Shown: in pieces, positions 51-5,586 of the stretch
Numbering within the stretch: the first letter of the stretch is position 1
Layout: each line of letters begins with the position of its first letter
Assembly (NCBI GenBank): GCA_003452655.1
Contig: DMNR01000192.1
Coordinates: forward strand, 14,295 to 19,880
Length of the DNA stretch: 5,586 nt
Reading direction: 5' to 3'
DNA from: Actinomycetota bacterium
GTDB lineage: Bacteria; Actinomycetota; Actinomycetes; S36-B12; UBA10799
Position numbers and translations under genes: made by a program
Notes under the pieces: generated by a model
Told to the model about the DNA's origin: nothing
The model's input: only the letters and a program-made list of their open reading frames with translations
Databases searched by the model: none

Positions 51-734
51 TCACGAACCGTCTTCGACGATCTCGTCGATCGCTTGCTCCGGTGACTCTC
101 GCCGATGCTTGATGTACTCGATGATGATCGGAATGATGCTGATCAACACCACCAGAATCAGCACGATCTCGATGTTGTCCTTGATGATCGTGAAGTTCCC
201 CAGGAAGTAGCCGGCGAGGGTGATGATTCCCGCCCACAGCACCCCGCCAATAGTTGAGTAGATCGCGTACTTGCGGAAGTCCATCTGGGCAACGCCGGCA
301 ATCGCCGTGATGAAGGTCCGGACGATCGGTACGAACCTCGCCAGGATGATTGCCCGAGCTCCGTACTTTTCGAAGAACACGTGCGTCTTGTCGACGTACT
401 CCTTCTTGAAGAAGCGCGAATCTGGCTTGTCAAAGAGTTTCGGGCCGACGGCTCTACCGATCCAATAGCCGCACAGGTTCCCGACCACAGCCATGACCAC
501 CAGGACGATGGTCACTAGCCAAATCGGCTCCTTGATGAAGTTCTGCGCAACGAAGAGTCCGGTCAAGAAGAGCAGGGAGTCACCGGGAAGAAAGAACCCA
601 ATCAGCAATCCACATTCAGCAAAGATGATGAACGCGACACCGACGAGCGCCCACGGACCCAGCCAATTGAGGATGTTCTCAGGCTTCAGGAAGTCCAGCA
701 GAGCCAGCTGTTGGACGAATTGGCTGAAGTGCAT
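51..734 (-). CDS. DedA family (VTT domain) integral membrane protein
   Basis: 227-residue inner-membrane protein of the DedA/SNARE-associated (VTT) family. Members are thought to be proton-coupled transporters or scramblases that recycle lipid carriers such as undecaprenyl phosphate and maintain envelope homeostasis. Visible family features are the acidic residue E40 followed by a glycine-rich stretch and the P50-G51-D52 turn, the GNLCGYWIGR segment (85-94), FFEKYGARAII (120-130), and the ARFVPIVR re-entrant motif (132-139) with its two conserved arginines. Hydrophobic segments lie near 28-50, 70-93, 163-180 and 186-208. The tail is charged and ends in DEIVEDGS. Length is normal. The ATG shares one base with the pyrE TGA (TGATG) and has no strong ribosome site of its own, so expression probably depends on coupling to pyrE. 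Base composition is lower in GC than the aminotransferase, largely because of its Ile/Phe/Met-rich membrane segments. The substrate cannot be told from sequence. Confidence 0.95.
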   Translation of the reverse strand: MHFSQFVQQLALLDFLKPENILNWLGPWALVGVAFIIFAECGLLIGFFLPGDSLLFLTGLFVAQNFIKEPIWLVTIVLVVMAVVGNLCGYWIGRAVGPKLFDKPDSRFFKKEYVDKTHVFFEKYGARAIILARFVPIVRTFITAIAGVAQMDFRKYAIYSTIGGVLWAGIITLAGYFLGNFTIIKDNIEIVLILVVLISIIPIIIEYIKHRRESPEQAIDEIVEDGS

Positions 735-3941: not shown

Positions 3942-4079
3942 ATCAATCTTTCGTTGCGGGTGCGGCGATGGCACGTAGGGCCTCGCTCGAACCGCTCGCG
4001 CTAACAAGCGTGGCAGAACTTCACGATTGATGCCTCAACCAGAAGCACCCGTGGCCCCGCGTGGGCCCAGTCGCGCGGA

Positions 4080-4085
4080 TACCGT
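4080..4085 (+). promoter_or_regulatory. Putative aminotransferase -10 box (leaderless promoter)
   Basis: TACCGT fits TANNNT and ends exactly seven bases (TGCCCGC) before the ATG at 4093, the same geometry as before pyrE. There is no Shine-Dalgarno near this ATG, so a leaderless mRNA is plausible. It also supports 4093 as the start over the in-frame TTG/ATG at 4027/4030. No -35 of note is present. Confidence 0.4.
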
Positions 4086-4092
4086 TGCCCGC

Positions 4093-5277
4093 ATGCCTGA
4101 CCTGTCACGTCTCGTTCCGCGGATGAGGCCGTATGCAACGACAATCTTCGGGCAGATGTCCGCCCTCGCGACCGAGGTGGGGGCGGTTAACTTAGGGCAG
4201 GGATTCCCCGACGTGGATGGCCCGCAGGCGCTCAAGGACATCGCGGTGGCGGCCATCGTCGACGGCAGCGGAAACCAATACCCGCCCGCACATGGTCTGC
4301 TCGACTTGCGGCAGGCAATCTCGGAACACCAGCAGCACCACTACTGCATTTCGGTCTCGGCGCAGACCGATGTTGTGGTGACGACCGGCGCGAGTGAAGC
4401 GCTTGCGGCGGCGGTGCTGGCGCTCGTTGGAACGGGCGATGAAGTCATCGTGCTTGAGCCATACTTCGATCTCTACGCCGCGATCATTGCGCTGGCCGGT
4501 GCCAAGCGAGTGGCGGTGCCTCTTGCCGTACCGGAACCGGGCTCTGGCGAGGGGTTCCGGCTGGACGCGCAGGCGCTCTGGGACGCCGTGACTCCTCGCA
4601 CGCGGATGATCATCGTCAACTCGCCGCACAATCCGACTGGGATGGTGCTGACCGAAGCGGAGCTAGCGGCGATCGCCACGATCGCGCGTGACCGTGACCT
4701 GCTCGTGCTGAGCGACGAAGCTTATGAGCATCTCGTCTTCGGGCCGGCCAAACACATCCCCATCGCGACTTTGCCTGGGATGTTCGAGCGGACAGTGACG
4801 GTGGGTTCCGGCGGAAAGTCGTTCTCCTTCACCGGCTGGAAGGTCGGATGGGCGAGCGGGCCAACGGACCTGATCGCTGCCGTCAGGGTCGTCCGCCAGC
4901 ACCTTTCATACGTATCCGCGGGCCCGTTTCAGCGCGCGATCGCAGCCGGGCTGCGGTTCCCGGATTCCTACTTCGCTGACTTTGCAGCTGACCTAGAGCA
5001 GCGCCGGGACCTGCTGGGTGACGGGCTGCGCGAACTCGGGTTCGACGTCGTGCCGTCGGACGGGACCTACTTCCTCACGTCCAACATCCGGCCGCTCGGA
5101 CACGTCGACGGTCGAGCGTTCTGCGATTGGCTCGTGCGCGATGTCGGTGTTGCGGCGATCCCGATCGAAGCTCTCGCGGATGACGAGGCGACGTTCGCCC
5201 CCTACGTCCGGTGGACGTTCTGCAAGCGACCCGAGGTCTTGGGTCAGGCACTCGACCGACTCGCAAGCATTCGGTGA
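4093..5277 (+). CDS. PLP-dependent class I/II aminotransferase (DapC / kynurenine aminotransferase-like)
   Basis: 394-residue cytoplasmic fold-type I aminotransferase. It closely resembles, from memory, mycobacterial Rv0858c, annotated as N-succinyldiaminopimelate aminotransferase DapC of lysine/peptidoglycan synthesis; the same subgroup includes kynurenine and methionine aminotransferases (YbdL type), so the substrate is not settled. Visible features are LRPYATT-like MRPYATTIFGQMSALA (11-26), VNLGQGFPD (32-40), NQYPP (61-65), the phosphate-binding TTGASEA (97-103), NSPHNPTG (176-183) with N180, SDEAYEHLVF (207-216) with D208 and Y211, SGGKSFSFTGWKVGW (239-253) with the PLP-binding K242, and VRWTFCKR (372-379) with the carboxylate-binding R373. 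ATG at 4093 gives a family-sized protein; earlier starts add a Pro/Ala-rich leader. The last codons and the TGA lie inside palindrome copy B, whose left arm encodes Ile-Arg-stop. Convergent with the permease gene. Confidence 0.93.
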   Translation: MPDLSRLVPRMRPYATTIFGQMSALATEVGAVNLGQGFPDVDGPQALKDIAVAAIVDGSGNQYPPAHGLLDLRQAISEHQQHHYCISVSAQTDVVVTTGASEALAAAVLALVGTGDEVIVLEPYFDLYAAIIALAGAKRVAVPLAVPEPGSGEGFRLDAQALWDAVTPRTRMIIVNSPHNPTGMVLTEAELAAIATIARDRDLLVLSDEAYEHLVFGPAKHIPIATLPGMFERTVTVGSGGKSFSFTGWKVGWASGPTDLIAAVRVVRQHLSYVSAGPFQRAIAAGLRFPDSYFADFAADLEQRRDLLGDGLRELGFDVVPSDGTYFLTSNIRPLGHVDGRAFCDWLVRDVGVAAIPIEALADDEATFAPYVRWTFCKRPEVLGQALDRLASIR

Positions 5278-5311
5278 ATCTGGCTACTAGAGGCGCCGAT
5301 TTCACCGAATG
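5268..5311 (+). repeat. 44-nt palindromic repeat, copy B, between convergent genes
   Basis: Arms CATTCGGTG (5268-5276) and CACCGAATG (5303-5311). Inside, AATC/GATT and GGC/GCC continue the stem, with bulged T at 5281 and 5302 and the conserved loop part GAGGC (5290-5294). It matches copy A, read in the sense of the preceding gene, at 37 of 44 positions. The aminotransferase TGA (5275-5277) is inside the left arm, and the permease stop is six bases beyond the right arm, so the hairpin would end transcripts from both sides. TTTC follows on the plus strand, too short for a classic T-tract. The presence of the repeat is direct; terminator or REP-like identity is inferred. Confidence 0.85.
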
Positions 5312-5317
5312 TTTCAG

Positions 5318-5586
5318 CTAGACGGACAACTGCACGATTGATCGCACCACCGCAACAACTCCAACGATCACCACGACGAGTTCGCATACTTTCAATGCGT
5401 TCTCGGCCGAAACGAACCTCCGTGCGGCGAGACCGATCCCCACACCGACGGGAAGGAGCACAACCGCGCCGAGCAGCTGCCACCGTGTGACATCCGGTAA
5501 CCCAAGGAGCGGGATGCTCGCCAAGTTCATCACTGCGAAGATGAGCTGCTGAGTGCGCAAATAGTCGTCACGCTTCCAGCCCTGCC
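5318..5586 (-). CDS. TauE/SafE-type permease, C-terminal part (cut by window edge)
   Basis: Only the last 88 codons are in the window; the frame is open through the right edge, so the start is missing. The visible part begins QGWKRDDYLRTQQ, followed by a membrane segment FAVMNLASIPLLGL, a short loop DVTRW, a segment with the glycine pattern LLPVGVGIGLAARRF, and a final segment VCELVVVIVGVVAVV before a short tail RSIVQLSV. Three hydrophobic segments with a G-x-G-x-G-like helix and a last helix close to the C-terminus are what the C-terminal half of sulfite/organosulfonate exporters of the TauE/SafE (DUF81) family looks like. An in-frame TTG at 5560 is internal and not taken as a start. The substrate is unknown. 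Convergent with the aminotransferase across repeat copy B. Confidence 0.7.
   Translation of the reverse strand, partial: QGWKRDDYLRTQQLIFAVMNLASIPLLGLPDVTRWQLLGAVVLLPVGVGIGLAARRFVSAENALKVCELVVVIVGVVAVVRSIVQLSV

Follow-up and report, generated by a model that had tools for sequence, protein, structure and literature searches.

A dispersed two-half-site palindrome, mostly at gene 3′ ends in two sister actinomycete species, is conserved in sequence rather than in fold

Palindromic repeats at the ends of bacterial genes are usually interpreted either as mobile DNA or as hairpins in RNA. Inverted repeats with a fixed spacer that are conserved as DNA are represented by CIRCE, the HrcA operator, a 9-bp inverted repeat with a 9-bp spacer situated in promoters; the 44-nt element described here is likewise a fixed-spacer inverted repeat conserved as DNA, whereas its place is at gene ends and its spacer is 26 bp long. 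The DNA uptake sequences of Neisseriaceae and Pasteurellaceae are fixed words, sometimes set as inverted pairs at gene ends, and are far more numerous than the 44-nt element, with hundreds to thousands of copies according to the portion of the source consulted (PMC2346458). REP and REPIN sequences, accompanied by RAYT in Pseudomonas and enterobacteria, consist of two conserved ends in inverted orientation that enclose a spacer of diverse sequence but constant length, lie outside genes, downstream of them and in tandem or convergent gaps, in some cases supply a stop codon, and have stem compensation described as common, as far as the cited extracts go (PMC3116915, PMC8049555, PMC3733652). Inverted ends, a diverse spacer, extragenic location and gene-end placement are features that the 44-nt element shares with these repeats, as the same extracts depict them.

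The window (the whole stretch of DNA analysed, 5,586 nt) comes from contig C145 of G000, an assembly of 3.21 Mb in 466 contigs (71% complete) from an uncultivated species, and an N gap adjoins the window's first base directly on the left (G000 C145:14294). Copy A of the element occupies positions 3–46 on the minus strand and begins 4 nt past the stop of a gene for a VTT-domain membrane protein (51–734, minus strand; PF09335), whose product is presumably of the DedA type; its two outer arms, ATTCGGTG (4–11) and CACCGAAT (38–45) as read on the plus strand, are near-unchanged among orthologs, and an orthologous copy is located at C82:9830 of G003, the 83% complete genome of a likewise uncultivated sister species in the same genus. 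Copy B, identified by pattern match at 5268–5311 on the plus strand with outer arms ATTCGGTG (5269–5276, the 5′ arm) and CACCGAAT (5303–5310, the 3′ arm), stands at the 3′ end of a class I/II aminotransferase gene (4027–5277, plus strand, start codon uncertain; PF00155), the stop codon of which, TGA (5275–5277), falls inside the element and takes its TG from the 5′ arm. Convergent with this gene runs an 88-aa open frame lacking a Pfam match (5318–5584, minus strand), open at the window end, the stop of which is 6 nt from copy B. A neighbouring gene's stop supplied by the element (ATT CGG TGA), as in copy B, was also observed for a DUF559 gene in G003 (C73; L091 near 2205).

Read in the sense orientation, the two copies differ at seven of 44 positions (A/B: 10 G/A, 13 T/C, 20–22 TCT/CTA, 31 A/G, 34 C/T), as the initial annotation had stated, and both base-pair swaps that it had described from A to B, G-C to A-T at pair 10/34 and T-A to C-G at pair 13/31, are correct as written. 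Both copies fold better than every one of 200 dinucleotide-shuffled sequences, with z −4.4 for copy A and −5.3 for copy B; their minimum-energy folds carry 2 × 2 internal loops, and the bulged-T form is the centroid of copy A only. Three weak Rfam matches were returned for the window, all below the gathering score, in line with the initial annotation, which had not recognised the element as a named family, and among the entries listed by a literature search that included the two 9-mers no title or description matched it.

The two copies belong to a dispersed family, as had been proposed from them. Searching G000 (3.2 Mb) for ATTCGGTG-N26-CACCGAAT gave 23 exact copies, two with one mismatch, none with two and 16 with three; the last, in which the family consensus is absent by eye, were excluded, and a reversed-pattern control gave none at ≤1 mismatch and three at ≤3. 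G003 holds 29 copies at ≤1 mismatch, and at that threshold no copy was found in G001 or G002, which represent two other species and are the only further members of the genus among the 60 genomes searched. Five of these 60 genomes, the window's own included, gave a match: 25 in G000, 29 in G003 and one each in G010, G039 and G043. The G039 and G043 hits each carry one mismatch and lack the inner consensus, and the copy in G010, a genome of the same family, lies on a 4.1-kb contig (C90; L083) that matches G003 with 98% identity along 2479 nt and is probably misplaced. Matches in genome_contigs comprised 27 stretches, of which 19 come from the G003 assembly, one is the G010 contig and seven are single hits in other taxa with inner sequence unlike that of the family; five outer-arm hits in other taxa (L042, L045, L046, L055, L060) have mutually conserved surroundings, coding by their look, and no inner consensus. 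A typed 52-nt consensus had no match among phages and plasmids, and viral_contigs gave no exact match. When the same layout with another word was sought in 400 kb of the 2.7 Mb of G001, no 8+8 dyad occurred in more than two copies; contig C11 of that genome has a stretch of tandem repeats with a period of about 123 nt in what looks like a coding region (L134:15600–16400).

Copies with flanks were fetched in 55 cases and 54 were used (25 from G000, 29 from G003), the G010 copy being left out. Collection was at ≤1 mismatch in the outer 16 bases, with G000 alone searched to three mismatches, so that decayed G003 copies could be missed. Assembly gaps or contig ends fall in or beside copies at G000 C145:14294, C372:33290, C414:1 and C448:11296, and the copy counts are therefore lower bounds; one further G000 copy, interrupted by an N gap (C372:33265), has its partner on G003 C22.

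Each half-site approximates ATTCGGTGRRWTYGGC, extended outwards by a weaker GCARC, and the whole reads approximately as ATTCGGTG-RRWTYGGC, a 10-nt centre and the inverted half, an arm-centre-arm layout of 16-10-16 ending in CATTCGGTG and CACCGAATG. The spacing is a constant 26 nt in all fetched copies, and the length of the 42-nt core is the same throughout the 54 copies and within each of 18 ortholog pairs, which were built from neighbour protein matches and by manual selection of one partner wherever a doublet presented two. The outer 8+8 bases are uniform over the 54 copies except for one base each in C237 and C36, a uniformity that is weak alone since copies were collected by those very bases; conservation of the arms is concluded instead from the lack of two-mismatch hits in G000 together with the changes counted between orthologs. 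Across the 18 pairs, these amount to 1/288 in the outer arms, 1/36 at C1/G44, 5/108 in GGC/GCC, 23/180 in the inner arms, 47/180 in the centre and 203/640 in the flanks, the last inflated by indels because the flanks were aligned ungapped, which makes the centre the safer yardstick. Within the centre, the 5′ half carries 5–10 changes per position and the 3′ half 1–4, an asymmetry not accounted for by a plain symmetric dimer site. All copies descend from a recent common ancestor sequence, and part of the consensus thus reflects descent. Unpaired half-sites number 6 in G000, 6 in G003, 10 in G001 and 8 in G002, which is background level, so that the pair is the unit; solo transposon ends were considered as a candidate and rejected on the same count.

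The two compensated swaps had been taken to point to selection for folding into a hairpin and not for the sequence itself, a claim on which the 54 copies bear directly. In a half-swap test, the 5′ half of one copy was joined to the 3′ half of another and the resulting folds were compared with those of the true copies. On the two strands, z values were +0.96 (p 0.83) and −0.31 (p 0.37) for the 25 copies of G000 and +0.92 (p 0.82) and +0.42 (p 0.66) for the 29 of G003, and the inner stem only, pooled, gave z −0.58 (p 0.28); swapped halves fold as well as true ones, and the halves accordingly show no covariation. Among 26 inner pairs changed in the symmetric register over the 18 loci, one is a double change from Watson-Crick to Watson-Crick and in 17 a single change creates or abolishes a pair, while in the register of the initial annotation none of 19 changed inner pairs is compensated. 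Pair 10/34 lends the earlier interpretation a mild association: it is Watson-Crick in 26 of 36 loci where 18.2 would be expected (nominal p 0.006), but it ranks first among 64 pairs tested, and no ortholog pair has a Watson-Crick to Watson-Crick double change at that place. In the 44-nt family it is the sequence that is kept, and not the fold: what was seen in two copies was right, and the conclusion on folding drawn from them is not borne out by the family, with its near-invariant outer arms and uncompensated inner pairs. Half-sites at a fixed spacing, each conserved independently of the other, as expected of a protein-bound DNA dyad, are what was found.

The sensitivity of the half-swap test can be gauged from a second palindrome family dispersed in G000 and G003, 71 nt long with arms of 21 nt and a centre of 29 nt (L182:1053–1123, L170–L189, L012, L015, L073). 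Its half-site occurs with ≤1 mismatch at 15 places in G000 and five in G003, with weaker matches at four and two further places respectively, and as one three-mismatch half-site each in G001 and G002; 18 intact copies were extracted. Here the half-swap test (17 copies) gave z −3.9 (p 0.0004), and thus can detect compensation, serving as a positive control; over four ortholog pairs, 13/168 arm positions changed and three of 10 changed arm pairs were fully compensated. No bacterial family in Rfam matched it at the gathering score. The 71-nt family shares with the 44-nt family its long inverted ends, fixed spacing, dispersal and common orthologous places, and differs in its unrelated sequence, its covarying stem and the more frequent changes in its arms; it behaves as the initial annotation had expected of the 44-nt family.

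With genes called by a home-made codon-usage gene caller, 51 of the 54 copies lie outside predicted ORFs; 48 are classifiable by gap (16 convergent, 24 tandem, 8 divergent), and the other six comprise three within predicted ORFs and three at contig edges. A stop codon is found within 40 nt of 36 of the 48 copies, compared with 22.7% of points placed at random in those gaps of the same loci that lack the element (binomial p 2e-14, with orthologs counted twice; 18 of 22 for G000 alone), which confirms the bias to gene 3′ ends that had been predicted. An absence of that bias, together with uncompensated stem changes in further copies, had been named as what would speak against the initial annotation; such stem changes are present, and so is the bias, leaving a dispersed gene-end family standing and the selected fold not. 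In tandem gaps, 19 of 24 copies are closer to the end of the upstream gene, and the 18 tandem copies with clear orientation are not consistently oriented to transcription, 5 running with it and 13 against it. Ten proteins encoded beside or between copies were scanned and gave aminotransferase, DUF3052, HAD hydrolase, PhnA, GCS2, transglycosylase-like, WhiB, VapB-like, DUF559 and, just below the cut-off, cupredoxin-like matches; orthologs of the neighbour genes fall on at least 8 of the 10 contigs of G001, with no obvious chromosomal clustering.

G000 and G003 have the element in common at 18 places where it is intact and one where it is gapped, with flanking proteins 61–99% identical (mostly >80%) and, at most of these loci, the same neighbours on both sides. 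Turnover is also seen. In G003 the end of the orthologous gene lacks copy B, and both the sequence and the gene that follow are different as well; the G003 copy at C82:10574 is absent from G000; and the VTT gene end in G001 has a short gap and no element. The neighbours of the G000 copies on C115, C75, C439 and C36 were sought in G003 and not found, and that on C17 gave a 44% paralog only; for the remaining G003 copies without a counterpart among those collected from G000, the G000 search met with no neighbour, a paralog or the end of a contig. In G003 (C73; L091:2200–3271), a 308-aa DUF559 gene lies between two identical direct copies, the counterpart in G000 (C95; L074) being a single identical copy without that gene, and in G000 (C47; L019:2996–3325) a 74-aa frame lies between two direct copies where G003 (C148; L106) has one.

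The reading tentatively preferred here, at a little under an even chance, is that the palindrome is a dispersed element, sited mostly at gene 3′ ends, whose two half-sites keep a fixed spacing and which is likely bound as double-stranded DNA by a putative protein rather than acting as a hairpin. Near-unchanging arms, rigid spacing, a freer centre and the lack of compensation are as predicted for a protein-bound DNA dyad, and the predictions of a selected RNA hairpin, a T-tract terminator, an uptake word and a decaying repeat are not matched.

A REPIN-like nonautonomous repeat, whose inverted ends and spacer a transposase would copy and whose conservation would come solely from fresh copies taking the place of decayed ones, is an unlikely but by no means negligible account of the element. 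The doublet of conserved inverted ends enclosing a diverse spacer, the gene-end placement, the occasional supply of stop codons and the few copies that differ between G000 and G003 all fit it. The Y1_Tnp (RAYT) domain, however, was found in none of the four genomes of the genus (G000, G003, G001, G002; the first two 71% and 83% complete) and in five of 14 control genomes; the arms carry no GTAG or CGTC tag; decaying remnants in the form of excess unpaired half-sites are missing; and the compensatory stem changes of REPINs were sought and not found. REP/REPIN families exceed 100 copies in the extracts consulted, whereas the 44-nt element has tens, with its arms intact at 18 common orthologous places, a pattern not given by fresh copies replacing old ones elsewhere.

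An RNA hairpin at the transcript 3′ end, whether an intrinsic terminator or a 3′-end protecting structure, would account for the strong folds, the location just past stops and the preference for convergent and tandem gaps, but is improbable given halves that do not covary and a stem whose sequence rather than pairing is kept. A T run sought in the flanks of the element was not found, and the terminator scan of the window marked two terminator-like sites, neither of them at copy A or B. Element-free gene ends, moreover, seldom have strong hairpins (about 8% of 89 at the G000 and G003 loci; for part of G001, 13% of the 69 convergent, 5% of the 122 tandem and 2% of the 46 divergent controls), so that terminator hairpins are no general habit here and the element is not a mere substitute for a common one.

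It is highly doubtful that the element is a site-specific recombination site of arm, spacer and arm serving small gene cassettes: the 16-10-16 layout and the doublets around the DUF559 gene and the 74-aa frame suggest it, but these are two cases only, ordinary direct-repeat recombination would give the same outcome, and neighbours are unchanged on both sides at most common loci. A DNA uptake word, imported with bias and set in inverted pairs at gene ends, can be practically dismissed, as the fixed, strongly conserved paired word that recalls it is contradicted by unpaired words at background and by copies in the tens rather than in the hundreds to thousands of the source excerpt.

Under the preferred reading of a protein-bound DNA dyad, a putative protein would bind both half-sites as double-stranded DNA and, one step further, the bound protein may mark the boundary of a transcription unit, either as a two-sided roadblock that terminates transcription or as a boundary to supercoiling. 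Such a boundary role at gene ends would be the likeliest function of the element. The family was probably disseminated in the manner of a REPIN in the ancestor that the two species share, after which selection would have kept it at most places. A bolder and rather unlikely reading holds that a captured REPIN-like repeat, its arms held near letter for letter at some twenty chromosomal gene ends, may form a two-sided boundary operated by a dedicated putative protein, where other bacteria use hairpin terminators. The 18 orthologous places allow readings of palindromic gene-end repeats to be separated, in that the sequence is kept and the fold is not; if a protein does read these sites, it would constitute a dedicated gene-end marker, and one 52-nt probe would suffice to seek it.
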